Positions 9,516 through 52,068 of a DNA stretch of 64,000 nucleotides are shown here, piece after piece. A program made the translations under genes and the position numbers. This DNA comes from Isoetes taiwanensis (Eukaryota > Streptophyta > Lycopodiopsida > Isoetales > Isoetaceae): positions 94,191 through 158,190 of the forward strand of contig JAJEKV010000529.1 of assembly GCA_021234155.1 (NCBI GenBank), read 5' to 3'. Within the stretch, counting starts at the first letter, position 1, and every line of letters begins with the position of its first letter. Below the pieces are notes generated by a model. The model did no database searches. It worked only from the letters and a program-made list of their open reading frames with translations, and had not been told where the DNA came from.

Positions 9516-9789
9516 CTATTCCTGGACCATGTAAGAAACATTGCTAATAAAAAAGATACCTATGGTAAATGCCCCAACCTTTAATTTTCGCTAAACCATT
9601 GGCAAGATCATATATTCCAGTCAATCGTGGGACGTTATACCTTCACATATGGAGGATTTTGTTTTTGCTCAATGTGACTTACAAGTTTAAGTGATAATTT
9701 TTTGTCATTGTGATGGGTTCCTACACACCAATCCTAGAACATTATATACGAGGCTGCTCGGAGTCATACACTACAAGGGTTAATGGGGG

Positions 9790-10080
9790 TTTGTAACGTA
9801 TGGGTTTGTAACGCATATTGATTTGCAACGCAATTTTTGATTTGTCACACGTGATAGATAACATTGTAATTTTGTAACGTGTGGCACATTTTGTATACTT
9901 GTAACGTGTTACTAAAATTTGTATAAGCTTGTTTGTAACGTGTGACAAATATTAAATTGTGTAATGGGTTACAAATTAAAACTGTAACGTGCGACAAACA
10001 TTAAAATTTGTAACGCGTTACAAGTTTCAATTGTAACGTGTAACAAATATAACTATTTTGTAACACGTTACACAAGGCCC
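9790..10080. repeat. 5' subterminal repeats of the large CACTA element
   Basis: About a dozen copies of a motif close to TTTGTAACGYGTKACAAA occur in 290 bp, in both orientations; many copies are near-palindromic (GTAACGCGTTAC). Such dense subterminal repeats are where the TNPA-type protein binds in En/Spm elements. Mirror copies lie at the right end. Confidence 0.8.
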
Positions 10081-15792: not shown

Positions 15793-16745
15793 GATGCATT
15801 ATTGTGGCTGTTCTAGACTTTGGGCCCTTCCCATAAAACTTGGTCCCTAGGGTAATAATGACAGTCTGAATGCCATGGTGCAATCGGTATGGCAGAGTGT
15901 TCTTTTATTGCAAAAATATACAATTTGCATAACTATCTTGTGAAAATTAATGGATTTTCATTATAAATGCTCGCTTTAATAGCATGCACGATTTTCCCAA
16001 AAATGATTTGTTGGATGATGAAAAAGCATGTTTTTTGTTTAATGATGTTGTAAACGTATTAAAGTAGAAACATATATGGTTTGTTTGATGTTTATAAAAT
16101 ATGTTACATGTTGATGAGTGCAGCAAAACAAATTTGTATTGTCAAATAACAACATCTCTTTAATCATGCAAGTAGGCAACTAAGTTCTCAATTATTGAGC
16201 CAAATGGTTGTTGATACACCATGGCATAAGATATAATAACGTTAAATAAATAATTTGTGATTGCAAGGACCATATTGTCATCCGTGTTTCTTGAAGACAA
16301 TGAATCTATCTTCAAACTATTCCACTATTCATTTAGAGGTCTTAAAAAGACATTACTAGTTATAATAAACCACTAATAATTCTAGTTTGTATTTGAAATG
16401 GTCCCATAAACTACAACTAGTTTTAGCAAACCAGTAACTTGTTAGTAACTGACATAAATAACCATGTTATAAACCACTATTCATTTTGACAAACCACTAT
16501 AGCATGTGGTTTTCTACTATCAAATAAATTGTTGTATGAAAAACCATGTCTATCATGGTTTTTAGATTATCTGATACCATTTTTGTATGGTAGTTTATTT
16601 TTGGGCGCCTTGTGTTACAAAGATATTTCGTAAATATAGCCGTTTGAAACTTGCAATTTGAGTTCTTGTAGGCACCCATTTGAGCTTCCATGCGCCCATT
16701 TGAGCTTACAGGCGCTTGAGGCATTGAGCTTCTCTTCTAGGCGCC

Positions 16746-17036
16746 ATGGATGATCTATTTGCAGATTTGCCTGCAACCACTAGGAGAAGAAGGTTGAAAG
16801 AGCTTGTTGACGCAGGTATGCTAGATCCTAGTGCAATATCACGAGCTCCTAGAGGACATTGTGCTGATGAGTTTGAAGTATGTTGGTGTGCATCTTGTGT
16901 GGGCCAACATAATCGATTGCCTACGACGATTGAGAGGCATCTTAAGTCATTTGGTGCCTATTGGAAAGCTCCTGAGAACTTTTGTACTCGTTTTGGTATA
17001 CCTTACAACTTTCGGCTCCACCGTAGGTACGGGTTA
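16746..17036 (+). CDS. CACTA N-terminal Cys-rich ORF (transposase-associated-domain-like)
   Basis: The frame opens MDDLFADLPATTRRRRLKEL and contains a CWCASC cluster followed by an IERHLKSFG stretch. The Transpos_assoc domain at the N-terminus of TNP2-family proteins has the same order: Cys-rich C-x-C-x2-C, then a helix ending in HL..GF. The coding frame runs to about 17036; a splice donor is likely near the TACGGGTTAG/GTAAAC region, with the next exon near 17170. It lies directly upstream of the SET ORF and 3' of dense AAACCACTA motifs. It could be an N-terminal exon of the transposase or a separate small DNA-binding protein. Confidence 0.6.
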
Positions 17037-17345
17037 GTAAACCCCCTTGTTTGGTTTATTTGCTAGTGTGTGCATGTTCTGCATGCATGTCCATTATGCA
17101 TCAACCATTAGAATATGCATATTACTTCTTGTTTGTATTATAAAACACATCTATTGGTATTCTAACAGACTTCAACACAACAAGCTACAATTAGTTTTTC
17201 GAGGGGAGTTTGGAGGCACATAGAGGTTGATGATGAGATGGATTACGCATGTAGTAATTCGTTATAGGACCCATAAGAAGTTGCGTGTGGATGTTATTAG
17301 TGGAAGTAGAAATTATGCTATAGGTTGTGATATACCGATCTAGTT

Positions 17346-17930
17346 ATGCCTCATGACATTGAGAAATTAATAAGGCATGTTGACCGTAGAAGATTGGGTC
17401 TTTATATTGGTCCATTACCAAGTTTAGGTGAGGAATTCAGTTATTGGGGTCGTCGATATATAATAAAACAGTCAACGATCCCTGGTGCCGGAAGAGGGTT
17501 ATTCATTGCCCAAGATGTTCAAGTTCGCTTTGGTACAGTTATTCCTTTGATGATCTATGGAGGCCCAGAATATAATGCATTAGAGTGGGAGGCACTAACT
17601 TATTACTCGTTCCGCATGATGGTTTATGGCTGCAATAGCAATGCATGCACCATGGAGATGAGGTTGGACCGTAGCGAGGATAAGAGAACCTTCATTGATG
17701 GTCGTGTTGAAGAACATGGCAATATAGCAGGGTTGATAAATAGTTGTGGTAGTAATAAAGACTCAATCAATTGTATATTTGAGGAAAGAAGTAATGATCG
17801 TGAGGAGTTCATGGCAAAGGCATCTAAGCATTTTGTCATGGTAATGGCCATAAGAACACTCAAAGCGGGTGATGAGTTGATTTTGGACTATGAATTGCCA
17901 TCCAATGTACCAGATCATTTTCGATATTAA
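17346..17930 (+). CDS. SET-domain protein encoded inside a CACTA transposon
   Basis: An intact 194-residue frame with a TGA in frame just upstream, so this ATG or a spliced-in upstream exon is the start. SET-like landmarks occur in the right order. STIPGAGRGLFIAQDV (about 43-58) matches the G-x-G motif of SET I. EHGNIAGLINSCGSN (about 121-135) matches the N-(V/I)-x-R-F-I-N-H-S-C region. FVMVMAIRTLKAGDELILDY (about 160-179) matches the final A-x-R-x-I-x-x-GEELT-x-DY block. The His of the canonical NHSC is absent (INSC), so methyltransferase activity is uncertain. SET proteins normally methylate histone or other lysines. It lies between the Cys-rich ORF and the TNP2 transposase, and a second diverged copy has the same neighbours at 51.5-52.1 kb, so it looks like a resident transposon gene. 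A missed intron joining it to adjacent exons is possible. Confidence 0.8.
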   Translation: MPHDIEKLIRHVDRRRLGLYIGPLPSLGEEFSYWGRRYIIKQSTIPGAGRGLFIAQDVQVRFGTVIPLMIYGGPEYNALEWEALTYYSFRMMVYGCNSNACTMEMRLDRSEDKRTFIDGRVEEHGNIAGLINSCGSNKDSINCIFEERSNDREEFMAKASKHFVMVMAIRTLKAGDELILDYELPSNVPDHFRY

Positions 17931-18228
17931 TCAATGTCCATTATTTCAAAATATGTTGAAATGCATATTATGTTTGTTCCACCATTATTGTTTATCTTCT
18001 TTCGCCTCTCCTTTGATTTTCAATTCAGTAAGGTGCATTTGTCCTAAACTTGTACGATTTACAATAAGAAAATGATACTTTAATAAGTTGCAAGTTCCAC
18101 TTTAAGCACTTTTTTTTTTTTTTTTGTAATAAATGGTTTTGGTAAAATGTTTAGCTTATAATTGTTATTTATCTTTGGTTTGTATTTCACATATTATTAT
18201 TATGACGTAGGTTGAAGGAGCTCCTCGG

Positions 18229-20412
18229 ATGTCAAGGTTCCATCTTCAAGATATGGAAAAGCTAGCACGAGAAAATCCGGTAATCAATGGGAATGTGGAG
18301 CAAATAAACAACCATGTTTATGATGAGATGACTCGCAATTTGCTATATGAGCATGCACAATTTGAATGTCTTATGGAAGATATTGATAATGAGGTAGGTG
18401 CACAACATATGAATGACTCAGAAGATGATGGAGTAGCTTTTGAGGTAGATCCGACTCAGTACTTTGATGAGCATATAATCCATGATGCTAAAACAAAATT
18501 ATATGAGGGTTGCAAGATATCGAGATTGACATTCAATCTATGTATTCTCAACTTACAAGGACAATATAAGATATCAAATGTGGCAATCGATGCAATATTG
18601 AGGTTTGTCTCTCCCTCCATAACTCCTAATTTTGTTTGCAATCTATATGATCTCTTACTTTGTACATCAATCTTAACTTTATCTCAATTTTTTGTAAGCA
18701 GGCTTATCAACAAAATATTGCCCTCGGCAACAGCGAGGTTCCTTCTAGTCGTGATGAAGCCACGAAAACTCATAAAGGCACTTGGTTTTGAGTATGAAAG
18801 TATTCATGTATGTCCAAATGAGTGTACCTTGTACTATAAGGACACTAAAGACATGGTAAAATGCCCTAAATGCAATGAATCAAGATATCGTAGTGATGTC
18901 CAAGGCTCGCCATCCCACCCAAAGGTATTGCGCTATTTTCCTATAATTCCTAGACTTTCTCACATCTTTTCGAACAAAGGAAAATGCTGCCTTAATGGGA
19001 TGGCATGCAAGTAAACGTGGATTCGGATGGAGTTATCGCGCATTCCTGGCGATTCCGAGGCTTGGAGATTTATTCATGAAAGATGGCGAGAATTTGAAAA
19101 GGAACCTAGACATGTTCACTTTGGTCTTGCAACGGATGGTTTTAACCCCTTTTCTAGCAACGGGTTGCCTCATGGTCTACTTGGCGGTCATGCTTGTAAA
19201 TTACAATATACCTCGGAGGAATCTATTAAAGCGGGGACATATCATGTTGAGCATGATTATTCCAGTGTTTTCACTTTTTCCACTTATTAGTAAATTTCTC
19301 ATATATATGATGAAATGTTTCAATGATTGACTTATGAATGTTGGTAATGCAGGTCCATCTCAACCAAAACAGTTTGATGTCTATCTTTTGCCCCTAGTTG
19401 ATGAATTGCAACAATTATGGAAGGGGATCCCCATGGTTGATATCTCTAAAACCAAATCTAAGGAGCAAAAGTTTTTATTAAAGGCTATCTTAATGTGGAC
19501 CATGCATGACTATCCTGGCCTTAGCATATGTACAGGTACGATTTTTTTTTTGTTTCCTTGTAAAATGGTTTGTAATTATATTGTTATATTTGTAGGCTTG
19601 CAAACAAAAGGGGAATATGCTTGTGTGCGTTGTGGTGGTCAAATCACCTCAAGATATTCCAAATCTATGAAAAAAACGGTATATGAGGGCCATGAGAAGT
19701 TTTTACCTATGGATCATCCACTTCGAAAAGGGGCACACCGAGAAACTTGTATCCCAAAGTGCATGACCACAAAAGATTGGCACAATGAATGGGAACGTGC
19801 AGAGGACAAGGCATGGCAAGAGGCCAAAAGATGCTTGTGATTTATCACGAAGACCCGATGACATCAAGATCAAGCCTCTAATGGTATGAAACGTCTTTCC
19901 ATATTATATGAGCTACCATATTGGTGGGAGTTGAAGTACACATCTCTATTGGATCCTATGCACATCATAAAAATGTTTGGATTCGATATGGAAGCATATA
20001 GTGGGTGAGAAGGATACAATTGGTTCTCGAGATGATTGTTTCTGGTGTACCCCCGCAATGCTATCTTGAAGGACCCAAAATCTAGATCCACCATGGGTTA
20101 TGAGTAGTCGGGACATACAGATTGTGCGAGAATCTATTAAGAAAGTGAGGATGCCCATTTGGGTATTGCTTTCGTCATTTCAAAGGTGTTGGACAAAGGA
20201 TGGTAAGTTAGCAGGACTCAAGTCCCATGACTACCACAAATTGTTGGCGGTAAGTTATTGTATTGCAATTTTATGCCCTAGTGCTTCTTATTCATGTCAA
20301 GCATGTTTGTCCATTTACATAGGAAGTATATTGTATTACTTATGCAATTATGCTCATTCTTGTAGGAGATTTTGCCCATGGTTCTCAGGAGAGGTTGCCT
20401 CCCAAAATTTGT
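18229..20412 (+). pseudogene. TNP2-type CACTA transposase (Transposase_21), degenerate copy 1
   Basis: This is the catalytic transposase of CACTA elements, which acts on the terminal repeats in the nucleus. Family blocks occur in order: YEGCKISRLTFNLCILNLQ (18.5 kb); then after an intron KALGFEYESIHVCPNECTLY, KCPKCNESRY and KVLRYFPIIPRL; then MGWHASKR; then DSEAW, HFGLATDGFNPF and VNYNIP; then FDVYLLPLVDELQQLW; then LMWTMHDYPG; then KGEYACVRCGG; then ELPYWWELKY and LLDPMHIIK; then GLKSHDYHKLL near 20.22 kb. Consecutive blocks lie in different frames around 18980-19330 and 19840-20100, where stops also occur, so the copy is frameshifted. Introns (for example about 18603-18701) account for some jumps. 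Direction and spacing match the neighbouring SET and DUF4218 blocks. Confidence 0.92.
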
Positions 20413-20534
20413 GAGCCTATTTTTTAAATTGGCCAAGCTATCTGAGTAAATCCAAATATATCATTGGTCACCCTTGGTGTATTGTTTTATTCCATATTAA
20501 ATAGTTTTTTATGCATTCTGAGATGGATATCATT

Positions 20535-21243
20535 GAAGGAGATAAACAAAAGTGACATCGAAAAAATGAAAGAGTTATCTATTGAAGTCTTATGCTTATT
20601 TGAGAAGGTGTTTCCAACGAGTTTCTTTGATATACAGGTCAGTCTTCCAAAATCTTGATATACTAGAACTATCGTTATACAAACATCTTAATTAGTTTCT
20701 TGGGTTTCAATCATATTTGTAATATATGTTTTGTGGCCCTCATACAGGTTCACCTACTCGTACATTTAGTCGATGACATCGATTGGGCAGGACCAGTTTC
20801 TTATCGTTGGATGTTTTTTCTTGAACGATTTATGAAAGTTCTTAAAGACTTTGTGAGACAATTTGCCAAACCGAGGGAGCATGTGTGGGGGTGGCTTCTT
20901 TGAAGATTGCAAGTTTGCTGTATCAACATATCTTAATAATGTTGATAAAGAGGCAATGATGTTTCTGCAACCTGAACAAGGCTTGGATAGGTTACATAGC
21001 AAAGGGCGCACTTACAAACTAAAACCCCATGAGCTTAGTGCGATCAAATTGTATATAGTACAGAATGAGCAATGCATGTCCAAATGGGTGCAAAAGTACA
21101 ATGACTTGAAGCAAGCGAGGGAATTAGATCGGCAATTATTTGGCAACACTCCACGAGCCCCATATCCTCGAGCTAGAAAGACTACCAGATCAGGTAGCCG
21201 AAGATTGGCTATTAAACACAATATTGGCTTCAGCAGAAGATGA
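20535..21243 (+). pseudogene. DUF4218-like C-terminal block of the CACTA transposase, copy 1
   Basis: The stretch reads KMKELSIEVLCLFEKVFPTS (about 20564-20625). After an intron ending near 20747 it continues VHLLVHLVDDIDWAGPVSYR and then WMFFLERFMKVLKDFVRQ. This is the classic DUF4218 pattern (EKIFPPAFFD, VHLLVHL, GPVQYRWMYPFER, LK..VRN). The frame then shifts near 20880 into a segment with IKLYIVQNEQCMSKWVQKYN. DUF4218 usually follows Transposase_21 in the same CACTA polypeptide, and it does so here. Confidence 0.88.
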
Positions 21244-21363
21244 AGTTGGTTCAGTGACCGACGAGGAAAGGCAGATTGCATATGGGCCTTCAGCATGGGT
21301 AAGATAGTAATATTGTTAAGATACTTTTTTAAAAATGACTTAACATGGTTGTGCAATATGTAG

Positions 21364-21864
21364 GTTTCACTATATAATGGATACATTTGCAATGGGCGAC
21401 ATTTTCGTGTGCAGAAAAAGGATGAAGTTTGTGTTACCTTTGACTGTGGAGTTATGTCTACTTTCATAGTTGAAAGTCGTGCAAGTGCAAAAGACAAAAA
21501 TATGATTGAGGCTGACATTGAGTATGTCGGAAAGATACAACAAATATTAGAGCTTGACTTTAGAAATTTTACTAAAGTCTTGTTTCGAATTAGATGGTAT
21601 GATGCACAACTACGAGGCAAAGGTGCCACATTTCGTCAAGGTCCCAATGGTTTAGTGCTCATCAATTCGAAGCGGTTGATTCCAGAAGACAATGAACCTT
21701 ATATTTTTCCAGAGAAGTGTGAACAAGTATATCTACATCCAGCACCTAATGATCGAGATTGGCTATATGTGATGCAGGTCAATCCTCGACAACGAAGAGA
21801 TTATGAAGCAGTTATCGAACCTCCTCCTCTTGCATTGCATGATCATACTCGGTATAGAGGATGA
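21364..21864 (+). CDS. DUF4216-like C-terminal domain of the CACTA transposon protein, copy 1
   Basis: Probably the last exon: an acceptor (TATGTAG) precedes GTTTCACTATATAATGG at about 21364. The frame then stays open to 21864, and an initiator ATG inside it lies at 21409. Recognisable parts are YVGKIQQILELDF and VLFRIRWYDAQLRG, which match the V.Y.G.+..I.ELDY...+V+F+C.WYD signature of DUF4216, followed by an acidic, proline-rich tail. The short distance to the DUF4218 block supports one multi-exon transposon gene from about 18.2 to 21.9 kb. Confidence 0.75.
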   Translation, partial: VSLYNGYICNGRHFRVQKKDEVCVTFDCGVMSTFIVESRASAKDKNMIEADIEYVGKIQQILELDFRNFTKVLFRIRWYDAQLRGKGATFRQGPNGLVLINSKRLIPEDNEPYIFPEKCEQVYLHPAPNDRDWLYVMQVNPRQRRDYEAVIEPPPLALHDHTRYRG

Positions 21865-22329
21865 GAGTGAAGACACCATCATGAGGAAGAAGTGGTACCT
21901 TTGGTGGCTGAGGTAGAAGGCATTGATATGGAAGAAGCATGTGGTACCCTTGGTAGAAGGCATTAGTATGGAAGAAACATTGACAAATGAAGAGGACGGA
22001 CGGGGGCAAGGACACAAATAATGGTGGAGTGTTTGTTTTCCTTGATATTGATGGGGATGATGGCACTCTAGAGCAAGAAATTTGTATTGGTCAAGATTTA
22101 TATGTAAACCGAGGAAGAATGCGGGCAATATTGCATGAAAATGATAATGTAGAAGGCGATGATTGAACTCATAGGAACGGATGGCAAATAGACAATATTC
22201 GATAATATTCTTCTTAATATGTTTTTCAAATATTAATGCCTTGACAATGATTGTTGGCTCAAAATTTAGATTAATGTAGATGTAGGGGTAACATTTAGGA
22301 TTCATATCTAACTCACTACAAAAATGTTC

Positions 22330-25300
22330 CCAAAGACCAAAACTTCGGCACCCAAAATGCACTTATGGGGTTTCGCTGGGACCTTCTATTCACGGCGTCA
22401 TGGGGTTTCGTTTGAACGCGCGGTTTGATATGTTCTCCGGACGGATGTCGAACTTGAACAAAGGATTCAATGGTGGGATATAGAGCACGCCAAAAAGTCG
22501 AGGCTGCTGCCTCGAAGGGAGCTTTTAAGCGCCGCCTATCTAATGAGGACGCCTTGCAAGGTCTGGCCTTGTTTGCTTGGGCAAGTTTATGACGCGGACG
22601 TATTATAATTAATCTAAACCTTTCCAAAATTTTTAAGTCCTGTATGTTGGCGATGACTACTATGCATTAATTTAAGTCCATTACTATGCATTAATTACAA
22701 TTCGAATGTCTTGCTCTGCGCAAATGCGGCCCTTGACTTCTAAGCTGCCACAACGGGAGAGTACAGGTCCAAACTCCATTCCGTCGGGTTCCCCTTGCTT
22801 CGGCGTACTCAAGCGCATGTGATTGGCCATGTCCCAAGTGCAAAAGACCAAAACTTCGGCACCCAAAGCGCAAAACACGCTGGCTAGAACACGGCAACTC
22901 ATAGGGTTTACGTCGAGGGGCTCTATCCTTGTCGGTCGACTAGGACCTTTGTAGTGTCTTGGCGTAGAGGGGGGGTGTTGGCCTTGAGCCACGGACCCTA
23001 AAACCACCGGGCGGCTTGCCCCAAAAGTCCTCTCAGAAGGCCACGGCGGCGGACGGGCAACTTCCCCTCTCGGGAACCGTGATCTGTCTCGCCCAATGGA
23101 CTCGAAGCGTCTACATTGCCCTAGTGACCAAGTTTTTGTGGGCGAAGCCCACCCCTTCTCGAAGAAGCCAAACTATCTCATGTGCAACAACTTTCGTAGT
23201 CAATTGGCCTAGGAGGTGGCTGGCGAATCTTTGCAATGTAGGGCATAAGTGTTTCTTTCTTTTACCAAAGCCAGCCGTATAACTTGGTCCCTAGGGTAAG
23301 TTTGGCATTCCGGACGATGTGGCAAAGTCGAATCGCCATTTCGGAGCCTCCACAATGTCCGAACGACAAAACACTTTGGTTTTACACTTTTCGCCCGCCC
23401 GGGGCGCTTGGCGGTTTGATATGTTCTCTGGGACGGATGTTGGATTTTTTGGACCTTCTCGAACCAGGTTCCTTGAACAAAGGATTCAATGGTGGGATCA
23501 CGGGGCAGAGATGGGAAGTGTGGTCTTTAGCGTCGCCCGTGGGCTTTTTTGCGCCGAGAAAGGCTGCCTCGGGAAGCTTTTGGGGCTCGCCTCACGGGGT
23601 TGGACTCTCCCCTCTAATGAGGAGGCCTTGCAAGGTCCTGGCCTTGTTTGACTTGGGCAAGTGTGCCAGCTCGGCTGCCCAACAACAGGCTGCCCGGACC
23701 GTTCTAATGCAAACTATTTGATCTAAATCTTATCCAAAATTTTTGAAAGTTGGCATGTATGTTGGCGATGACTTAGGAAGCTAGCTGACAAAAAATCAGA
23801 ATTTAAGTCCGTACTATGCATTAATTACGAATTTACGAATGTCTTGCTCTTTGCAAAAGCGACCCTTGACTTCTAAGCGCCACAGCGGGAGGATTCTGAG
23901 GTCCAAAGCGTATTCCGTCAGTTCCCCTTGCTTCCGTTCTCAACTGCATGTGATCGGCCACGTCCCAAGTGCAAAAGACCAAAACTCGGCACCCAAAACG
24001 CAAACCCTGCTAGAACCTGGCAACTCATAGGGTTTACGTTTCGGAGGCTCTATCCTTGTCGGTCGACTAGGACCTTGCGCCGTGTCTTGGCGTAGGGGGG
24101 TGTTGATGCGAGCCACGGACCCTAAAACCACCGAGGCGGCTTGCCCCAAAAACTCCTCTCGAAGGCCACGGCGACGGACGCAACTTCCCTCTCGGGCTGT
24201 GATACGTCTACGCCAATGGACTCGAGCGTCGACATTGCCCGAGGGACCAAGTTTTGTGGCGAAGCCCACCCTTCTCGAAGAAGCGCCAAACTATCTCATG
24301 TGCAACACACTCGTAGTCAATTGGCCTTGGAGGTGGGCTCTTTGAATCTTTGCAGGTGTTTCTTTCTTTTGCAAAGCCCGGCCAGGTGTAACTTGGTCCC
24401 TAGGGTATTTTGGCATTAGGACGATGTGGCGAAGTCGAATCGCCATTTGAACCTCTAATGTCCGAACGATAAAACACTTTGGATTCTACATGCGTCGCTG
24501 AGGGCCTTGGCGGTTTGATATGTTCTCCGGACGGATGTTGGATTTTTTGGACCTTCGAACCAGGTTCCTTGAACAAAGGATTCAAGCGGTTGGGATCACG
24601 GAACCAAGATCCGGGAGTGTGGTCTTTAGCGTCGCCCCGTGAGGAGCTGCCCGAGGAAAGGCTGCCTCGGGGAAGCTTTTGGGGCTCGCCTCACGGGGTT
24701 GGACTCTCCCCTCTAATGAGGAGGCCATGCAAGGTCACGGCCTTGTTTGACTTGGGCAAGTGTGCGGCTTTCATTTGCCCAACAACATTTGGCCCGGACG
24801 TTCTAATGCAAACTATTTGATCTAAACCTTATCAAAAATTTTGAAAGTTGGCACTGTATGTTGGCGATGACTTAGGAAGCTAGTGACAAAAATCAGAATT
24901 TAAGTCCGTACTATGCATTAATTACAAATTTACGAATGTCTTGCTACAGCAAAAGCGGCCCTTGACTTCTAACTGCCACAATGGGAGGAGTACAGGTCCA
25001 AACTCCATTCCGTCAGTTCCCCTTGCTTCGCGTTCTCAACTGCATGTGATCGGCCACGTCCCAAGTGCAACAGACCAAAACTCGGCACCCAAAACGCAAA
25101 CCCTGCTAGAACTTGGCAACTCATAGGGTTTACGTTTCGGAGGCTCTATTCTTGTCAGATTCGACTAGGACCTTGCGCCGTGTCTTGGCGTAGGGGGTGT
25201 TGATGCGAGGAGCGGACCTAAAAACCACCGGGCGGCTTGCCCCAAAGTCCTCTCCGAAGGCCACGGCGGACGGACGGGCAACTTCCCTCTCGGGAACCGT

Positions 25301-26640
25301 GATCATCTCGCCAATGGACTCGAGCGTCGACATTGCCCTAGGGACCAAGTTTTGTGGCGAAACCCACCCTTCTCGAAGAAGCGCCAAACTATCTCATGTG
25401 CAACACACTTTGTAGTCAATTGGCCTAGGAGGTGGGTTCTTGAATCTTTTGCAATGTAGGGCGTAAGTGTTTCTTTCTTTTGCAAACGGACCGTGTAACT
25501 TGGTCTCTAGGGTATTTTGGCATTCGGACGATGTGGCGAAGTCGAATCGCCATTTCGAACCTCGCAATGTCAGAACGACAAAACACTTTGGTTTCTACAT
25601 TGTCGCCCGCAGGGCGCCGTGGTTTGATATGTTCCCGGACCCGGATGTTGGATTTTTTTGGACCTTCTCGAACCAGGTTCCTTGAACAAAGGATTCAGCG
25701 GTCGGATACGGAGGCCGAGATCGGGAGTGTGGTCTTTAGCGTCGCCCCCGGGGGCTGCGAGGAAAGGCTGCCTCGGGGAAGCTTTTGGGGCTCGCCTCAC
25801 GGGGTTGGGACTCTTCCCTCTAATGAGGAGGCCTTGCAAGGTCTGGCCTTGTTTGACTTGGGCAAGTGTGCGGCTCATTTTGCCCAACAACGGCTGCGGG
25901 ACCGTTCTAATGCAAACTATTTGATCTAAACCTTATCAAAATTTTTGAAAGTTGGCATGTATGTTGGCGATGACTTAGGAAGCTAGCTGACAAAAATCAG
26001 AATTTAAGTCCATACTATGCATTAATTACGAATTTACGAATGTCTTGCTATTGCAAAAGAGCCCTTGACTTCTAAGCGCCACAACGGGAGGAGTACTGAG
26101 TCCAAACTCCATTCCGTCGGTTCCCCTTGCAGCGTTCTCAGCTGCATGTGATCGGGCCACGTCCCAAGTGCATAAGACCAAAACTTCGGCACCCAAAACA
26201 CAAACCACGCTAGAACACGGCAACTCATACGGTTTACGTTTGGGCTCTATCCTTGTCGATTCGACTAAGACCTTGCGCCGTGTCTTGGCGTAGGGGGGTG
26301 TTGAGGCGAGCCACGGACCCTAAAACCACCGGGCGGCTTGCCCCAAAAGTCCTCTCGAAGGCCACGGCGGCGGGCGGGCAACTTCCCCTCGCCGGGCCGT
26401 GATGCTACGTCGCCAATGGACTCAGAATGTCGACATTGCCCTAGGGACCAAGTTTTGTGGCCAGAAGCCCACCCCTTCTCGAAGAAGCGCCAAACTATCT
26501 CATGTGCAACACACTCGTAGTCAATTGGCCTAGGAGGTGGGCTGCGAATCTTGCAATGTAGGGCGTAAGTGTGTCGTTTTTTTGCAAAATTGACTGTGTA
26601 ACTTGGTCCCTAGAGTAATTTTGACTTTCCAAACGATAAG
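22330..26640. repeat. Tandem array 1 of a ~1.1 kb unit (about four copies, first one shortened)
   Basis: Using the marker TGTATGTTGGCGATGAC, copies lie at about 22641, 23755, 24853 and 25957, a period of 1.10-1.11 kb. The units are moderately GC-rich with one AT-rich stretch (ATGCATTAATTAC). The long open frames in the units shift between copies through many small indels, so I regard them as non-coding. The unit is homologous, in reverse complement, to the array at 56.7-64 kb. Confidence 0.9.
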
Positions 26641-26890
26641 CGACGTCAGATCCGCGGGCGGCGTTAAGCGGCGTTTTTGTGCGTGTACGACACGCCGCGC
26701 TTGCTGGCGTGGCGCCCGGCACCATGTCCGCGGGCATGGTGGACCGCGTCGGCTGTTTATGTGGCGTCGTTGAGCGATGTCGTGATGCGTTGAGCGGCGT
26801 CCGCGGTCGTCAAGCGGCGTTTGTCGTCGTTCCTCGACGACTTGAAGTCGTTCAACGACCTTTAGACGTCGTTGAAGGTCGACTATCCCT
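26640..26890. repeat. CG-rich subterminal repeats of the nested element
   Basis: Repeated GGCGT, GCGGCG and CGTCGTT words, ending in near-palindromic runs such as CGACGACTTGAAGTCGTTC, lie directly inside the CTTGTAGTG terminus. Composition differs sharply from the adjacent array. The same style of CG-rich repeat occurs at 45.9-46.4, 49.75-50.29 and 56.57-56.66 kb. Confidence 0.75.
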
Positions 26891-27014
26891 TGTAGTGACT
26901 CTTGTATGCATATGGGTAAAAATAGTAAACTTTGTATATGTAGATGTACAAGAAGATGAGCACACTTAAATTAGGGGTGCCACCTATCTCATTATGCACT
27001 CTACTTGGCAAGTT

Positions 27015-27242
27015 CAATCGATGAGCTTGGGGTACAACGCGACCAATAATTATAAATGGTTCAACAAACCATGGAGCTCATTTCTTAGCTTTAGGAATGT
27101 TAAAGAACTATGGTTTATCCTAAAAAAATACCTAATCCCCTACAACAAATTTGCATGGATAACATGGAACTTGGGTCGGGATTATCGTTGGACCGTAAAT
27201 CAAGAAATTTATATTAAGTGGTCCATTTGGTGGTACGTGACT
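27015..27242 (+). CDS. Unidentified aromatic-rich open frame
   Basis: About 76 codons rich in Trp, Tyr and Lys (KWFNKPWSSFLSF, FAWITWNLGRDYRW, IYIKWSIWWYVT). The composition looks coding, perhaps an exon of a transposon-associated protein, but I cannot assign a family. It lies between the nested array element and an AT-rich stretch inside the large CACTA element. Confidence 0.3.
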
Positions 27243-27895
27243 TAGTCCCTTGTGAGTTGATTGCACTTGCCATGCAATAAATACTATTATATATCTCATG
27301 GGCAATATTGTTACTTCAACATCTCTAAGCTAGTATGTCATAAACCACCCTCAATAGATCCAGCTTATTGGTTTGTGGCATATCCACATTTGAACTTTTT
27401 TAAGCTAAAGAGTCTTTTGTAACAAATAGCATTCCCTAGCCCTATACAAGATACATGCATAAGTTGCGAATGTGAAAAATATTAATTAGATATTTGCATA
27501 GATATCTAACCTAGGTCATAGATAAGATTTAAGTGCAGGGATTTATCATATGGTATTCTCGCAGAAAGAAATGGTCGATGGTTTGATTTTTAGTGACATT
27601 GATGCATAATGCAATGGTCAATTAATATGACCATATATGCATAGAGATCTTGCAAAAAACTTGGTTAAATAAAGACGGCGAAGTGGGAAACGTGACTAAT
27701 TCAGTGGCCACATGTTTTTGAGATTATTGTGCTGGAGAACCAACTCATTAGTAAATTTACTAGCACAACCTTAAAATTTGCAATGGTTATATCATGACGA
27801 TGATTTAATGAGTTATATGGCTTATATATATATGTAACACTTATGCTTACATATATGGCTTATAAGGGACAAATAAATTCAAAAGAGAAATTATC

Positions 27896-28015
27896 AAATG
27901 CAATCTTGTAACAGTTGTAACGAGTCACAGGTGGTGGCGAATCGTCACAAATTTTTTCATCTTCTTCATTGTAACGAGTCACAGTTGGCGGGGATGCGTC
28001 ACAAACTTATTCCCA
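27896..28015. promoter_or_regulatory. Internal cluster of CACTA subterminal-type motifs
   Basis: Two TTGTAACGAGTCACAG boxes and two TCGTCACAAA/GCGTCACAAA boxes occur within 120 bp. They match the motif found at both ends of the large element, but lie in its interior. A purine/pyrimidine-mixed leader and a possible splice donor (CCAGGTATTT) follow at about 28130, so this may be the promoter region of the element's second transcription unit. The role is inferred. Confidence 0.45.
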
Positions 28016-28689
28016 AATTCCCAAATTCTTCCGTGATTTCTTGATTCCCGCCAATCTTGCTAATCGATCTTGTTTGCGGTGCTTGCGGTGCTGAAGGTTG
28101 ATCTGTAGACGCTACTCATCATCCTTCCAGGTATTTTTTTATCCCTCACTTTCAATCTAAAATCCCTCACTTTCAATTTAAAATTTATGCATAGGTAGCA
28201 AGAATGCTCAAACATTGTGTTTTAATTGTTCACCGATGTAGAGAGGCAAATTCAAACGGGCAAAATTCCGAGGGAAGCAAAGGGCTATTTTCAAGGAATT
28301 GAGTAAGAAGGCAAAACCAGGTCAGAAATTAGATACGTTTATTTGTAATAGAGTATGCAAGCTTTGATGTGCAAGAATAGAGTTGGCTCATATATGCAAG
28401 CTTTGATGTGGAAGCCTCGTATATTAAGCTACACTCAAACAGAATGGTGAATTTTATTGTAATGAGTGCATCTTCTTCATATGACGGCAATCTAAGAACC
28501 TAGAAGGCACAAGCTTTGTGTGGAATCCTCTTTGAGCATAGGTGCTAACTGTATGCGCTAGTTTCTTCTCATCAAGTGTTTACATTATTTAACATTGAAC
28601 CCCCACTTAACACTCCATGTACAAGTGAAAAATCGATGCAAGCAGGGAAAGATGTTTTTTTGCCAAAGAATTGACATATAGTACAGACC

Positions 28690-28920
28690 TCATCTAGCAG
28701 CTATTGTTGATAGAAGTTCATCAAGTAGTGCTTTTAACTTTGCTTTAGTGATGGCTCCTTCTCTGCGGCTTCCAGGTACTTCTTCTCCGTCTTTAAAAAG
28801 AATAATAGTTGGCAGCTATAGGGTTTGTATTTGTCAACCAGCTGTGGATTAGGATCTGTTTTAATCTTGTAAACTTTTAATTGCCCAGCATAATTCTGCA
28901 TAAAATTCAAAAGAGTATCT
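28690..28920 (-). pseudogene. Captured thioredoxin C-terminal fragment (plastid x/z-type-like), frameshifted
   Basis: The minus strand reads AGQLKVYKIKTDPNPQLVDK and then YKPYS. After a one-base frame change near 28815 it continues [20 protein letters not shown] and [20 protein letters not shown] before a stop. This is the second half of a chloroplast-type thioredoxin, including the cis-Pro loop (LPT) region; the WCGPC active-site half is missing. Its antisense orientation, truncation and position inside the CACTA element indicate capture of a host gene fragment. Confidence 0.8.
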
Positions 28921-29008
28921 CCATCAAAATTCCGCTATGAATTCAGCGTTATCAGTTTTCAATTGTTTCCAATAATGGAATATATTTCACGACAAACCAT
29001 TACCATAG

Positions 29009-29100
29009 TGGCCAGTATAGACTAAAGCATAAAATGGCCTATATTAATGCATGGTGGCCAGTATAGACTAAAGCATAAAATGGCCTATATTACCTATTTT
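29009..29100. repeat. 46-bp tandem duplication
   Basis: TGGCCAGTATAGACTAAAGC, followed by ATAAAATGGCCTATATTA, occurs at 29009 and again at 29055, identical over about 38 bases. Confidence 0.9.
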
Positions 29101-29699
29101 GCCATGTTTTTGTCCATTTCTAATTTATCACTTTGCTTAGGGCAGTTGACAGTAAGTTCTTGCATATTGCTGCAACTGTCAAAACACAACAAGGAGTTAC
29201 ATGGAGTTGTATTCGTGTTTAGAATGTGCTGGCAGAGCCCGGACTTAAGGCAACTGGTCATATGAATAAGGCACGCATATACACAGTTGATGGAACTCCT
29301 CATGCACAAGGAGTTGCTTGTCTAACAGCAGACTTCACTGCTGAATATTTGTGGCATGCCAGATATGGTCATGTAGGAGCATGAGCTTTTGGTGAGTATT
29401 GGAGCATTAGCTTATGGTGCTATTCCTATGGAAAAAGCAAAACAGCCTTTGCTAATGTCCAAAAGGATGCAATCCTCAAATGAAGCAGGTCTTTCCAGAA
29501 TTGCAGATTTTGTGGAAGATGGCACTTATAAACAAGAGTTTAGGGTTGAACTTCTTAAAATTTGTTTCAGCAAATTCCTTGCGTACAAACACCATCTTCA
29601 CAACACGAGCCTGTTTCATTCTTCAGTTGATAAGGATGTCTCTAATTCTCATCTATAGAGGCTCTTCAGGTTGAAGATGTCGCTCCTTGAAATGCAATG

Positions 29700-31204
29700 A
29701 TTAAAGGGCATGGCCTTAATTTTGCAGGGAGCATGGCTGTCCAATTTTTTGAAGACATGCAAGAACATGGTGTAAATCCTAACATTCACATGTCTGCTTG
29801 CTGCCTGTGGCCGCGCAAGTTTGGTGGTCAAGGGTCATGAGTATTTCAAAGTAATGCAGGAGGTATGGCATTATGCCCACAGAAGATCACTATACTTGAT
29901 TATGCACGACCAGGATACTTGATTAAGGCAGAGAAATTGGCTGGCTGTACCACGCCTCTTATCAAAAGTGTGGCTCATTAATTGACATGTATTTTAAGCG
30001 TGGCGAAGAATCCATTCAACTCTGTTACCGGATCTTTGCAGGAGAATATACCCCAAACAAGGTTACTTTTGTTAGCATTGTTGATGCACGTACTAGGCTT
30101 GAATCTCGACCAATGGGATTTCGATACATTGGGATATTGTTAGACATGGCGACTCGGATGTCATTGTAAAGGCGCACTACTTAATATGTATGGCAAATGT
30201 GGGCTATTGGGAGATGCCGTCAAATGTTTGATGAGCTTCCTAAAAGGAATGTTGTATCTTTTACTTTGCCATGATTGCAGCATATGCTTCGGCATGGTCT
30301 TGCCAAGGAAGCCTTGGAACTCTTCTATGAAATCGGCAGGATGGCACAAAGCCTAATGAAATCACTTTCCTTAGCATTCGCTCTGCATGCGACCATTACG
30401 GACTATGGGACAATGGTGACCTTTGGTTTGTTTCCATGTGTGCAGATTATGGCATCTTACCTTTGGTGGATCACTACTATAGCCTATTAAATCTTATTAG
30501 TCATGTTTGGATGGTTCAATGAAGCGAGAGGATTTTTGTTAGTGAAATGCTATTTCAAGCTACATTACATTTAGCGATATTATGGTTGCATGCGACCATG
30601 AGGGATTTGGTTGATGATGGCTGTCATTGTTATGTCTCCATGAGTATAGATTATTTCATCTCACCGGTGTTGCAACACTTCAGCTCCATGGTTGATCTTC
30701 TTAGCCATACGGGATTTCTAGGCATTCTTTGAATCACTCATCAATAACATGCCTCTTGAGGCGATGCGGTATCATGGGCGACATTATTACGCTCCCACAA
30801 ACTTTTGCGGATCACGGGTCCACTACTAACTACTAATATTTTTCCATATATTCGCAAGAATTGATCCCTTGTGGCCTTGGCAATTTATATTTCAAAACAC
30901 AATCCTTTCTGTATTATGCTTGCAGAATTGGCAACTAAAGAGAAACTTATCTGCCTGTATCTCTAGTAATCAGTATTTTAATCTAATGCTACCAGATTAA
31001 CTGCAGATGTTTGCTGGTCCACCAATTGGACAATGTTATGATGCAGCTGGGCATATGGTGAACTTGAATCCTTTAGATACCACAGCATATGTCTTGCTTT
31101 CAAATATTTATGCTAAAGATTTTAGTTGGGCTGACCAATTAGGGTTGCAATGGGAGAGTATGCTTCATGAGATGTCCACTGGGGAAGTTGCGACTAGCAT
31201 GTAA
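29700..31204 (+). pseudogene. Captured PPR-protein gene fragments, multiply frameshifted
   Basis: Pentatricopeptide-repeat proteins bind organelle RNA. Segments of typical repeats are readable in shifting frames: MAVQFFEDMQEHGVNPN near 29.74 kb; AACGRASLV; YTPNKVTFVSIVDA near 30.05; LLNMYGKCGLLGDAVKCFDE near 30.18-30.23; NVVSFT and MIAAYAS near 30.27; GLAKEALELFYEIG; KPNEITFLSI near 30.35; then DYGILPLVDHYYSLLNLI near 30.44-30.50. An E-domain-like stretch (NLNPLDTTAYVLLSNIYAK) lies at 31.05-31.12. At least six frame changes and internal stops make it a pseudogene. Inside the CACTA element it is best explained as captured host sequence; it may combine two gene pieces. Confidence 0.82.
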
Positions 31205-37228: not shown

Positions 37229-38562
37229 TTATGTTATCCGGGAGAGGAGTATTAAGGTGTCCCGTCTGCTTTTCATTGTTACGGGTAAAGGCCGTATATA
37301 ATCGGCCATGTGCAAAGACATTCGTATGCGCAGATCAATGACCACTCGATCCAATGTTAAACCCCGGACGCCTGTTAAACGTGGTTGAATACGATAGTCT
37401 GAGTGGTAATTGTCGCCGATGAATAGTCCATGGGCGGTTTTCTGGTTGATAGAAGAAATCTGTTCTGGAAATCGGGTACACGTTCCCTTCTGGATCACCT
37501 AAAACCCTCACCATTACAAACTTCTCATGCATCGATTCAATCACAACCCTAGCATTCTTCACAAGTCCCTTCTCCATGTCTAATCGTTTCATCACATGAC
37601 ATATCGCCCCCACCTTAAGTGTGAGTTCATGATTGGGAATCCCAGAGTGTGTGAAATTATTCAAGAAATCCGATGTTGCATAGGGATGGTCATGAATAAG
37701 TTGGTCTTGTTCGGTTATATGATCATGGCTGTAATACAACTTATCCTGGTTAGGAACCCTGCTTAAGACCCGACCATTGAAATCGTCAACGTGCCTATTG
37801 ATTGGAGCGAGGGAAACTCGTTTGTCGGATTCGACTGGATCGTCGAGGATATTTGTTGGATAGAGGAATTCAACTGTATCCGCAATGTTTGTAGTTATAT
37901 TGAATAAATCCAACGATACCGTAGTTTGTTCCCAGTTCTCCCCGATATTGTCAACAAAACGCATGAGCTCTGGATCTCCTGCATTTCGTATTGGTTGATG
38001 CAACCTCAACACGCGAAAGACTTTCCATAACTACGATGATTTTATAGATGCACTGAATGCTGCAATTCTTCCCCCACCCTTTACTACAGGTGCGACTTGC
38101 CTAAAATCACCGGCAGACTATGAAGTGTTTTCCACCAAAAGGAAGATGTTTCCACGGTCGTTGCAACACATGATTTCGCTTTCTATTACGGCCTTATTGG
38201 CCATTGGAAACTCATCGGATAATGACCTTAGCGGTGATGAGTTGTCTTTGCTCCCGATTCGGGGTCCAACATCTAATGTAGCCAAACATTATTTTCAATT
38301 CTGAGGGGATCACGAAATAGGGAATCTGGATTTAAGCCCTTGCATATAGTCTGGCTGCCAGTGCCGTTGTACCACATGGAAGGACTATGCCTCTGTTGCT
38401 GCGTATGAGAAAGCATATGCATTTCAAAACAAATGTTTTCCCTGTGCCAGCTTTTCCATCTACAAATATAGGATCATTGCTTAGAGGTGATTCCAACCAT
38501 TGTTTTATGAAATGAAATATTTCTAGCTGATTATCATTCATCATACTTGACATTTGAAGCAT
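37229..38562 (-). pseudogene. Helitron PIF1-like helicase domain
   Basis: The domain unwinds DNA during rolling-circle transposition. The start reads NDNQLEIFHFIKQWL, then FVDGKAGTGKTF (Walker A, residues 36-43 of this frame). After a frame break comes DEFPMANKAVIES (Walker B region) and AGDFRQVAPVV (the GGDFRQ motif). A long frame at 38012-37335 follows with RVSLAPINRHVDDFNGRVL and GAICHVMKRLDMEKGLVKNA. The final motif, normally TINKSQGQT, is altered to TTFNRRPG, so motif VI is damaged. A tail frame lies at 37498-37229. Breaks at about 38330 and 38030 plus motif loss indicate no helicase activity. Confidence 0.92.
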
Positions 38563-38567
38563 AGATT

Positions 38568-41131
38568 CTAGGTAGATGCGTGGTCAGAAAATTTTGCTAG
38601 CTCGTGCATCACATCTCTGCCAATACGATGTTGCAATTGCAGCCCAAACGCCATGATGTTAGTCCCATGTTGAACGAGAATATTATTGACTAAGTGCAGA
38701 GATTCATTGAAAGCAATTACATCATCATTAGGGTATTCATCTAATAAGTCAAGACTCATAGGCACCTGAAACTTGGTCCATAAATCGACTGCTGGTCCCT
38801 GATCAAGTATTAACATGGCAAAAAGAAAACGTAGCTGTGTAGGACTCAACGATAGAGAAGTTGCCTCTTCCATAACTAGCATTGCTTCATTATGTGCCGC
38901 AAGCAAACCCCCCGCTTCTGCAGCCTGTTGATATGTCTCATAAGTTTGATCATTAACCCTCTTCAATTCATCCCACGTCCTGGCCGGACGGTGCAACAAA
39001 ATTTGTCTTAAGTAGAACGCCTCGCCGACCTTAGGTAATAATAAACGTATTCTACATACTAATGGTTGTCTAATCCTTTTCCTCACAATGCTTCGTGTAA
39101 TTCCTTCTTGCTCTTGTTCTACATATGATCCAGATTCAGATGCTAATGATGGGTTAAAGGGTGTTAACGTATATTGTTCGTAGTATTGAATATAAGTCAG
39201 CGTATCAAATACATGATCAGGCGGACGTAAGAACTATCGATCCAATAATGATCTTGTATTTGGTCGCAACAGATGCAAAGGCAGACATTTAACAGCAGGG
39301 GACTTGTTCGTTATGTCGTATGACATTATTCTCCAAGACGCCTCCATGGCCGAAAGGTATCGTGCCTTTAAGTACTCACGTATCTCATCTCTAGGAACCG
39401 ATGCACTAGTATGCGTCTGCGGAATGTTTTCAGAGCAATGACCTGTATTGAGATTTGTATGCGCATCATTCACTTGTGTACCTCGTGTGATCGGAACTCT
39501 CTGCTGATCAAGGCCCAATGACGTCCCCGTGTTTGTATGCCTCTCTTGAGTAATTTGAAATCTTGCAGTATCAAAGCCCTTATATATGTAACCATAGAGA
39601 TAAGAGAAGACATGCCCGATGGATGCGATGTCAACCATAATATGGCAATCGAGTTCATGAAGCAAGAATGCATTATATGGAACTACCAGCGTCATCTACA
39701 CTCCTCCTCCTATATTGCATTACCCTTTCGAGTCAAGGTGCATTGTTGGATTAACTAGCTTTGGATAGTTATAGCAGCAAGAAGCACCCGCGTGGGGAGC
39801 ATCTATTAGAATGTCTATGAATCATAAATTTTTTGGACCCTACGAATAATAATCGGATCACTTGGTAGTTCTGCGGATATAATTTCATCAACACATTCTA
39901 TTGGTATATCTGGTTCGGTACATAACACAAGATGCGAATGCGGTAATCCTCGCTTCTGAAACTCTACTACTGTTATTATATATGATACCCGCTGAAAGAA
40001 TTTATGTAACAATTCTTTTAGGCGTTGCAACCTTCCATGAAAACATCGAACAACAGTGATAGGTATATCAGAAGCATTTTGTCCAGGCCCAAGGGCAGCC
40101 CTTATTTCTGGCCAATCCGTGTTTAGTCGATCATCGTAACAAATAGAGTTGGCGGCCTTTTTTGACCTAGACAATGCCAAGCGCGACGGCAACTTTGACT
40201 GAGGCACCACCGTTGACAACCCAAGAACGACGAAGGAAGGATAACATCATTTTGATTGTCATTTTCTCGCTCAGAATAATCTTCATCGTATTGAATCCTC
40301 CTATTCCTGAAGGCGGAAGTCCTAAAGTAATTTAGTCGTGCGTCCTCAACCCTTGAATATATATCAACGAGATACTCCCCACATAAGCGGCCTAGGTGAA
40401 GGAACCTATCCTCATGCAATATTCTTGCTCTGTACCATTGTAGTTGCGTGAGACCATATTCATTCCTAAGACCCCACCCTATGGTGTACCATGCGGAAAT
40501 AGTAGTGGATATTGTAAAGGTTCATACATGGGATCAAGAATATTCAAAAGTCGGTTCACCCACATTTCGAGCCCAAAGCCGCGCCTTTCGGGGCCTTAAT
40601 ATCAGCCAGTATTGCTGACCTGCGCAATTCTTGCTATTTCGCCGCTCCCAATTATTCCCTCAATCGTAATATATGCCGAAGGCATAAGCACACTCCCCAT
40701 AGTTGAAGGTGTCTAATAAATGGATTTGCTCGATCGAGAATTGAACCAATGGTTGCAACCCCGAAAGGGCACACCGAAGTCCCGCTTTGCGCGAAGCGTT
40801 GCGAATCGTCATATATATACTAGTGTATGGGATTTCCAGTATCTCTTGTTGGAAGCAACCGATGATACGTACGACCCGTGATCGTCACTGATGAAGGGAA
40901 GTCCAAGTTGACGAACTCCCCATCAACCCCAAGCACGTTGAAGCAAAATAGTCTATTTATCTTTCTACATACTCCATTAAAACCCGGCATGTTGTATAGA
41001 TTAACCAATGCTTCAGGCAAGGAAGGTAACTGCAGGAGCAACCACTTTCCCTTATTACAACAAAACCCATTTTGTTCAACATTCAACAATGGAATATTGC
41101 AATACGTGCATCGTTTATTCCATGTGCACAT
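38568..41131 (-). pseudogene. Helitron Rep (HUH/Y2) region
   Basis: Rep nicks and joins DNA at Helitron ends. Blocks from 5' to 3' begin with CTYCNIPLLNVEQNGFCCNK and LPSLPEALVNLYNMPGF (41131-40820). WPEIRAALGPGQNASDIP and VEFQKRGLPHSHLVLC (40219-39815) carry the HUH-type His-x-His. VVPYNAFLLHELDCHIMVDI and YLYGYIYKGFDTARF (39695-39234) carry the catalytic tyrosine pair, followed by SAMEASWRIMSYDI and SPAVKCLPLHLL. Then come LLPKVGEAFYLRQILLHRP and LRFLFAMLILDQGPAVDLWT (39086-38568). The blocks lie in different frames and are partly separated by stops, so the gene is broken. Confidence 0.9.
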
Positions 41132-50939: not shown

Positions 50940-51509
50940 ACTACCATATATTGTATCTATCCACAGCCGTTCAAACTATTATGCGGTATATAGTACTTAC
51001 CTTTTGTAATTGGCGGAGGGACAAAATAGTTTGTGATTGTAAAAGATGTATGGGGCTGAAGAGCGACTTAGAAACGGTTGTTGAAGACCATCGATAAGAT
51101 TTGGTACATTTGAACAACCCACCCGGATCGATGCTCGTCATGGATATCGGGTTGGTATACAATTATTATTTGTTTTTTTTTTTTTTTTTTAAGAGTATCT
51201 CTCCGGTTCAAGTATATATTCAAGATGTTTATGATATCTAAATATGTAGGTAGATGATCTTTGATGTCTCCTCAAACTAGATGTGGATTTTGGTTTAATG
51301 TTGTCCATAGAGGCATATGGCTGAAGCGGTAACCGATTCATCAATAATGTGGATGGGTGCAGCTCAGCGGCTGAGAGTGTTCCCCTGCGTGAAAAGAACA
51401 CGAAGGGCTACAATCATGAGAACATTGCATGTGTGCACATTTCCCAAGAGCAGCTTGGCCTCCTTTGCCCGGCGTGAAATTCAAAAGAATTGCAAAGATT
51501 AGTCCGACC

Positions 51510-52068
51510 CTTTGTTAGGCACCCAAGACATTTGGCTTGTGGCCAGTGAACTACCTATCCCTATGGATCAAGAATTTGCTTATTGGGGAAGAAGATACAT
51601 CATTATCTTGAGACGCATTTGTCAATTTGGATTGGCCTTATCTCGACACTTGGCGTATAGAAGTGGGCGAGATACCCACATTCCATTAATGCCATATCAC
51701 GGGTCAGAAGTACGATTGGAAAACTTGGCAAACTTTGACTAAATATGCTTGGCGTATGAGGATTTATGGAATGAATTCCAATCTTTGCGTCGATAGGCTG
51801 TGGGGGCATGTGATGAGGAGTTGAAGTTTATTGATGGTGCGTCGAGGGGGTTCATGGCAATATTGCGGGGTTCATCAACAGTTCTATTGACAACCGTGGC
51901 GATGCAATTGTGAATTTTTAGAGTGTCAAGGAGGGAGGAAGATTTTTTTACAAGATGCGTAAAAGCGGATATATCATGGTGTGTGCTATTAAAAGCATAA
52001 ACATTGGAGATGAGTTATTCATCAACTATCGCTATGATAGACCTCTCCCATTTGAGATGGAACAATAG
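51510..52068 (+). pseudogene. SET-domain ORF, degenerate copy 2
   Basis: Compared with the intact copy at 17346-17930, the same landmarks recur. ELPIPMDQEFAYWGRRYIII at 51.55-51.60 kb matches LPSLGEEFSYWGRRYIIK. FIDGASRG at 51.83 matches FIDGRVEE. NIAGFINSSIDNRGDAIVNF at 51.86-51.92 matches NIAGLINSCGSN. SGYIMVCAIKSINIGDELFI, then NYRYD, at 51.97-52.04 matches the final SET block. The G-x-G segment is rearranged, the frame shifts several times and a stop follows AIVNF. It lies upstream of the TNP2 remnant, as in copy 1. Confidence 0.82.

Follow-up and report, generated by a model that had tools for sequence, protein, structure and literature searches.

SET genes are already known in DNA transposons, the closest described systems being the HarbingerS and MuDR families of Phytophthora for which they are cited (Kojima and Jurka 2014, through PMC12730594, a source available in part). 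By description, they share with the present elements a SET protein of the histone methyltransferase type encoded within a DNA transposon; they differ in that they are Harbinger or MuDR elements of oomycetes, whereas the elements reported here belong to the CACTA/TNP2 type of a land plant, appear to carry the SET inside the transposase gene and have a Transposase_21 as its neighbour rather than a Harbinger-type transposase. The original prediction had put forward the primate SET-mariner fusion SETMAR (PMC8704517, seen in part) as a precedent. This stands insofar as SETMAR also brings a SET domain and a transposase together, but it is not the closest case, the Phytophthora families being nearer (PMC12730594, same portion); in SETMAR the SET is fused to an inactive transposase within a single host gene, whereas here TNP2 is a separate coding region and the SET gene lies within mobile elements present in many copies. 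Other transposons carry different tools of this kind. For example, TET/JBP genes occur in many fungal transposons, including EnSpm and Plavaka, and have been proposed to act against silencing (available portion of PMC12730594); they are alike in that a modification enzyme travels aboard the element and differ in that it is a DNA 5mC dioxygenase, in fungi, and not a SET protein. Plant Vandal MuDR elements encode anti-silencing proteins (PMC12730594, same portion) and share with the present lineage the idea of a transposon controlling its own silencing, through another protein and with the role here being predicted only. In angiosperms, CACTA elements show the order TAD, Transposase_21, DUF4218 and DUF4216, and only Peptidase_C48 and Transposase_24 are described as added domains of the plant CACTA/EnSpm architecture types 1-4 in the part of PMC8978399 available, from whose text words starting with methyltransferase or histone are absent. 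The elements described here resemble types 1-4 in the order of a putative transposase-associated domain, Transposase_21 and a putative DUF4216, the first and the last scoring at best just under the Pfam cut-offs, and differ in the SET exon placed between the transposase-associated domain and Transposase_21. In agreement with the original prediction, which knew of no CACTA lineage with this arrangement, we found no report of a CACTA element with a SET in the literature searched (including PMC12730594, PMC12062965, PMC3145265 and PMC8978399, as far as these were available), a body of text that excludes Repbase and most subscription papers and is no proof of absence.

A large CACTA lineage in the genome of Isoetes taiwanensis carries its own SET gene ahead of the transposase. 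The genome also has a LEAFY-type domain (PF01698, 4 matches), as would suit a land plant or a near relative of land plants. In the window, by which we mean the whole stretch of 64,000 nucleotides analysed, an intact ORF at 17346-17930 encodes a true SET domain, matching the Pfam SET profile at E 7.3e-6 (26.8 bits against a curated cut-off of 22.4), and all 40 of its aligned genomic relatives match the same profile (PF00856) at E <=0.01. An AlphaFold model fed with the 40-member alignment reached a pLDDT of 90.5 and a pTM of 0.86, so that the objection that no SET fold would be predicted falls away. The best Foldseek rows for this model are MLL1, SET8 and SET7/9 (best E 2.6e-7), the best VIA match is SETD7 (4jds_B; Z 12.5, rmsd 3.1 A, 134 residues aligned), and the best 50 rows of each search are all SET/PR-domain proteins or complexes containing one, such as PRC2 and COMPASS; the ranking carries no information on the substrate. 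A single-sequence search of the PDB with the ORF gave 0 matches and a profile search gave 15 weak ones (best E 0.062), with LegAS4 among the nearest (E 0.076); relatives sought in IMG/VR and in GTDB genomes gave 56 and 26 pattern matches, respectively, of which 0 were confirmed in either. Within the same genome the transposon SET profile matched the host SETs weakly, at best with 11.8 bits, the host frames having been chosen by an NH-type pattern from 13 host loci fetched, of which 3 were without a frame and 2 gave short scraps only. The features of the SET-bearing element in the window are as follows.

9769-9779, plus strand: 5' terminus of the SET-bearing CACTA element (CACTACAAGGG), at the boundary of the homology between the window and its copy L001
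10073-16613, no strand: nested insertion of 6.5 kb, missing from L001
16746-17036, plus strand: Cys-rich exon (CxCxxC...HL), a degenerate Transpos_assoc-like domain
17331-17930, plus strand: SET coding exon or gene; the ORF given above runs from the ATG at 17346, and the stop codon is at 17928-17930
18211-19014, plus strand: TNP2 transposase, first coding piece (TNP2 profile E 2.9e-75)
19015-19840, plus strand: further TNP2 pieces (Transposase_21), with stops and frame changes in the window copy
21409-21864, plus strand: DUF4216-like C-terminal region of the transposase gene (PF13952 E 4.1e-6, 27.7 bits, just under the cut-off of 30.6)
22314-26897, no strand: probable second nested CACTA-type insertion, with repeats spaced by about 1.1 kb inside and ACT at each side

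The SET ORF thus lies between a Cys-rich ORF and TNP2, as had been claimed at the outset. The transposase is of the kind that defines CACTA/EnSpm elements, Transposase_21 (PF02992) being recognized at 19334-19840 with E 1.6e-23 and the profile pieces covering 19015-19287 and 19331-19837. The ATG at 17346 is probably not the true start of the SET ORF, because the 99% identical copy L001 is open for about 60 codons farther upstream and because the Cys-rich exon is probably part of the same protein; the SET frame is also open 5' of this ATG in L002, L003 and L005. Since stops occur upstream of the SET and inside TNP2, the window copy is a poor representative of the lineage.

The element can be delimited by comparison of copies. 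L001 968-1274 corresponds to window 9766-10072 and L001 1269-6979 to window 16614-22331, and the 6-base overlap at the nested insertion between them looks like a target-site duplication. The homology of the window with L001 opens with three common bases, ATA, followed by the 5' terminus, the sequences farther upstream being different, and the homology of L002 with L003 likewise opens exactly at CACTACAAGG. The 9-mer CACTACAAG also occurs 1.3-1.9 kb 5' of the SET in L005, L009 and L026. On the 3' side, the homology of L083 with L084 stops within one base of CTCTTGTAGTG, and 5' it starts at a non-CACTA point. CACTA and TAGTG termini are therefore both present, the 5' and 3' ends being seen in different elements and not in one. 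Among the copies extended, none was recovered as a complete SET element bounded by its two termini and flanked by matching 3-bp duplications: a second terminus was not found for L002, L003, L009 and L012, and L001 gave no 3' end, its 98% identity to the window running 4 kb beyond. The insertion at 22314-26897 carries CACTACAAAAA at 22314 and CTTGTAGTG at 26889-26897, which we infer to form a pair of ends with only CACTACAA in common, and it is also found in L001, with one repeat unit and the same 3' flank. Arrays of repeats spaced by about 1.1 kb lie in opposite orientations at 22666-26876 and 56699-63822, the first with four units in the window against one matching unit in L001. Past the CACTA end, window 26898-31083 keeps some 98% identity to contig C1018 over 4 kb or more, which could reflect a segmental duplication or an element of much greater length.

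A second element in the window repeats the arrangement in degraded form.

51478-52065, plus strand: degraded SET, profile pieces in several frames (E 9.4e-16, 2.1e-14, 3e-13 and weaker)
52375-53913, plus strand: degraded TNP2, profile pieces (best E 8.5e-28)

Its SET is broken, its PF02992 match is sub-threshold (E 6.6e-4, 19.4 bits, cut-off 28.6), and SET and TNP2 occupy the same slot and strand as in the first element, which bears out the diverged copy reported at 51.5 kb.

The arrangement recurs throughout the one genome of 1.66 Gb that was searched. With the window SET as query, at least 151 matches were obtained, the best 150 of 1,488 first-look candidates having been scored; the best match besides the window itself had E 2.0e-131 and the weakest among the matches listed 1.5e-33, values that chance would not produce. 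When a sequence from a clade of about 40% identity served as query, at least 154 matches were obtained (best 150 of 1,353 candidates scored), and merging 274 SET rows, with some second-fragment and duplicate rows left out, yielded at least 267 SET places. The objection that the ORF might be absent from the other members of the family therefore fails. For TNP2, 131 places from one list and 150 rows of a second (at least 167 matches) gave a union of at least 270. Of these, at least 67 have a listed SET no more than 6 kb upstream on the same strand, with gaps of 0.2-4.6 kb (median 1378 bp, mostly 0.9-1.9 kb), a proportion of 67/270 that is a lower bound because each list covers the best 150 candidates scored. 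Among the 68 close pairs listed, 67 have the SET upstream on the same strand, 1 is in opposite orientation and 0 have it downstream on the same strand, whereas controls in which the SET places were moved by 20-200 kb gave 1, 0, 0, 1 and 0 pairs. Starting from the SET side, TNP2 was found downstream of 11 of 12 SET loci picked across the diversity, the twelfth being L004.

Not all CACTA elements of this genome carry the SET. Twenty TNP2 loci were drawn at random from the 150 listed rows and 4 kb upstream of each was read; a SET profile of 13 copies and a broader profile found the same six loci, L016, L021, L026, L028 and L031 on the same strand and L024 on the opposite one. For a seventh locus, L014, a SET is listed some 4.4 kb upstream, and no SET was found in the remaining 13. 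In L024 (G000:C1055:3047014-3051414), where the SET pieces and the nearby TNP2 lie on opposite strands, a second element or a rearrangement is probably involved. In a TNP2 tree of 33 sequences (LG+G4, some rows partial), seven SET-free loci (L013, L015, L017, L019, L020, L023 and L032) form one clade with 100% support, and the other clades are made up of, or shared by, SET-bearing elements. The remaining six SET-free loci (L018, L022, L025, L027, L029 and L030) are nested within SET-bearing clades, where loss, truncation or displacement would explain them best, which suggests that the SET has been lost or displaced in many copies. Because the root is not fixed by an outgroup, one gain of the SET is the simplest reading only.

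Several gains, or the swapping of SET exons among CACTA lineages by recombination, would be another way to account for this distribution, and one that we hold to be distinctly improbable. It draws on the midpoint-rooted tree, in which the seven SET-free loci adjoin one SET-bearing clade (91% support) and the number of gains depends on the root, and on the reported movement of TET/JBP genes among fungal transposon lineages (in the available portion of PMC12730594). However, the slot and strand are the same in all but one of the listed close pairs, and SET and TNP2 distances are strongly correlated (Mantel r 0.92, 0/9999 permutations, n=15 elements including close relatives), a correlation that points to a single old acquisition. 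Most simply, the SET would have descended with the transposase from one such acquisition.

A further explanation takes the SET for a passenger, an exon of a host SET gene that was picked up a single time and has since been multiplied with the element to no advantage. Captured gene fragments are frequent in CACTA and MULE elements, gene capture by CACTA is well known, and many SET copies are broken, with stops in many of the listed rows. Substitution patterns were compared by the Nei-Gojobori method across 51 SET copies (1,275 pairs, 628 with finite dS), leaving out the 647 pairs with saturated dS and 12 more at dS >=3 that fall outside the bins; the copies were chosen mostly for having no internal stop, which favours intact ones and may lower the values somewhat. 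The median dN/dS is 0.67 at dS<0.1 (127 pairs, with 5 of dS 0 excluded from the median), as a passenger might also show, but it is 0.38 at dS 0.1-0.3 (63 pairs), 0.34 at 0.3-0.6 (71 pairs), 0.22 at 1.0-1.5 (81 pairs) and 0.33 at 1.5-3 (274 pairs, near saturation). High values among close copies and low ones deeper are the pattern that would be expected of a gene needed for transposition, and the SET appears to bear the mark of purifying selection. Against a passenger speak also the frames still open at about 40% identity in many copies and the equal mean distances of SET and TNP2 (0.519 and 0.520 over the 15 elements), so that we regard this explanation as already disfavoured and very improbable. 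Among recent copies, some element pairs are 94-98% identical across kilobases, and L075 and L076 have identical SETs in elements 96-98% identical in aligned blocks. Position, co-divergence, the TNP2 tree, open frames, dN/dS, the fold and the CACTA termini together support the vertical inheritance within the transposon lineage that had been argued from two copies.

The structure of the transposase gene suggests where the SET came to lie. A CxCxxC frame, sought by regular expression, is found 5' of the SET in 16 of the 17 sequences searched, which represent all four SET clades, starting 0.26-0.63 kb before it; it is not found in L006 and is cut short in L021. Its resemblance to the Transpos_assoc domain (PF13963) is strongest in L010 (E 1.3e-5, 25.7 bits against a cut-off of 27.7), followed by two others at 0.03 and 0.061, while a fourth version gave no match and the window version none at E up to 1, so that the curated cut-off is reached by none of the Cys-rich versions tested. 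In four SET-free loci (L015, L019, L023 and L032), on the other hand, a canonical-looking ECPCxKCNG...HL is found some 0.8 kb 5' of the TNP2 domain, and the Transpos_assoc-type frame meets or nearly meets the TNP2 frame, leaving no space for a SET; the pattern was not found in the remaining SET-free loci of the random sample. Because the Transpos_assoc exon directly precedes TNP2 in these four loci, as in the published domain order, the SET appears to be an extra exon that entered the transposase gene between its first unit and its second.

How this exon would be expressed is suggested by the donors and phases of four loci and by one continuous frame. A phase-0 donor (CAG^GTTAGT) lies 3' of the Cys-rich exon in L001, L002, L003 and L005, and in L012 the Cys-rich domain and the SET share one 431-codon frame. 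At the score used, no phase-0 donor was found in L009, L010, L031 and L028, other clades having weaker ones or none; the candidate donors of the window copy are out of phase, and a simple pyrimidine filter found no consistent acceptor. In 10 of 13 frames, the end of the SET lies no more than about a dozen residues from motif IV. From this we infer that the SET exon, with its own stop codon, may be spliced to the Transpos_assoc-like exon to give a Transpos_assoc-SET protein beside the transposase. A more tentative proposal, which we hold with more doubt than conviction, is that the SET serves as an alternative terminal exon, the choice of splice joining the Transpos_assoc-like domain either to the SET or to the TNP2 core; the shared domain would target both products, and a self-directed chromatin writer would have helped the lineage to grow large.

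Whether such a protein could act as an enzyme was judged from 51 near-full-length copies, the same set as for dN/dS, out of 59 SET frames (L008 is a duplicate of L016, and L024, L026 and L042-L046 are partial). The Asn of motif III and the Ser after it are present in 51/51, as is the Glu of motif IV (ELxxDY type), with its Leu and Tyr in 50/51 each; the Asp before the Tyr is found in 12/51 only, and motif I is degenerate, its first glycine being present in only 27/51. The histidine of the canonical motif III, N-H-S-C, is missing in 51/51, which have N-S-S/C/F instead, whereas host SETs of the same genome (L088-L094 and L099, picked by the NH-type pattern) carry NHS. No post-SET cysteine cluster was found in the extended SET frames examined. 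Because the His of NHSC is not universal among SET/PR domains, its absence weakens the case for a canonical enzyme and not that for a SET domain. The transposon SET is thus plausibly active in a non-canonical form, and its activity could be lost or altered, given the missing His and the lack of a post-SET cluster.

These features also bear on the main alternative, in which the SET fold has been kept without enzymatic function and the Transpos_assoc-SET protein is an accessory DNA- or protein-binding factor using the SET as a binding module, a job comparable to that of TnpA, the accessory factor of En/Spm. Such a role would fit the missing His, the degenerate motif I and the occurrence of the SET in one frame (L012), or probably one transcription unit, with the Cys-rich domain. 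However, the motif-IV Tyr and motif-III Asn, which serve catalysis and cofactor binding and not the fold alone, are nearly invariant, and LegAS4, the weak profile match mentioned above, also lacks the motif-III His in the profile alignment (N-F-S) and is reported to be an active methyltransferase. We consider a non-enzymatic SET rather unlikely. The explanation we favour, with somewhat more confidence than doubt, is an old CACTA (EnSpm) lineage with a SET exon between the Transpos_assoc-like and TNP2 exons, co-descended with the transposase and kept by selection, whose product is probably an AdoMet-dependent lysine methyltransferase acting at the copies of the element. The Transpos_assoc-SET protein would be made alongside the transposase and taken to the element copies by the same Cys-rich domain that the transposase uses; there it may modify chromatin, or a protein of transposition or silencing, and its predicted role would be to keep the copies expressed or mobile against host silencing. 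The anti-silencing protein of the Vandal elements is VANC, which is not known to be related to the SET protein.

From an evolutionary point of view, the finding suggests that jumping genes can carry their own chromatin-modifying tool, and transposons equipped with such enzymes give a direct view of the ways in which elements may respond to silencing by the host. Many related SET copies and SET-free CACTA relatives share this one genome, which makes it possible to compare within a single organism how the SET affects copy number, methylation and expression. The SET-bearing lineage may also have yielded a host gene. L004 (G000:C1042:13841592-13849592) contains, at 90-2585, an 831-codon frame without stops, whose N-terminal part of some 576 residues is that of a small gene family, presumed to be of the host (38 candidates gave 32 matches, often to exon pieces), with relatives at C907:23563493, C1033:947572, C1033:584513 and C921:2597546. 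The frame ends in a SET of transposon type that shares 66-69% identity with L005, L006, L040 and L041, with dN 0.27-0.30 and dS 2.3-2.9 (close to saturation) relative to its transposon relatives. No SET was found in the related loci L033-L036 within the 2.1-3.2 kb fetched, and the 6 kb downstream of the SET in L004 yielded no TNP2 piece. L004 may therefore be a candidate for a domesticated SET fusion gene comparable in kind to SETMAR, to which it is nearer than the SET-bearing CACTA elements are, in that it joins an ORF of a presumed host family to a transposon SET. Two further observations concern neighbouring sequences. In L086 with L084, the stretch 5' of the SET on the reverse strand includes a frame that we take to resemble an AMP-binding/4CL-type enzyme, perhaps a captured host fragment, and the ORFs on the minus strand of the window at 37335-40219 presumably represent a degraded Helitron, with pieces resembling a PIF1-type helicase and Rep.
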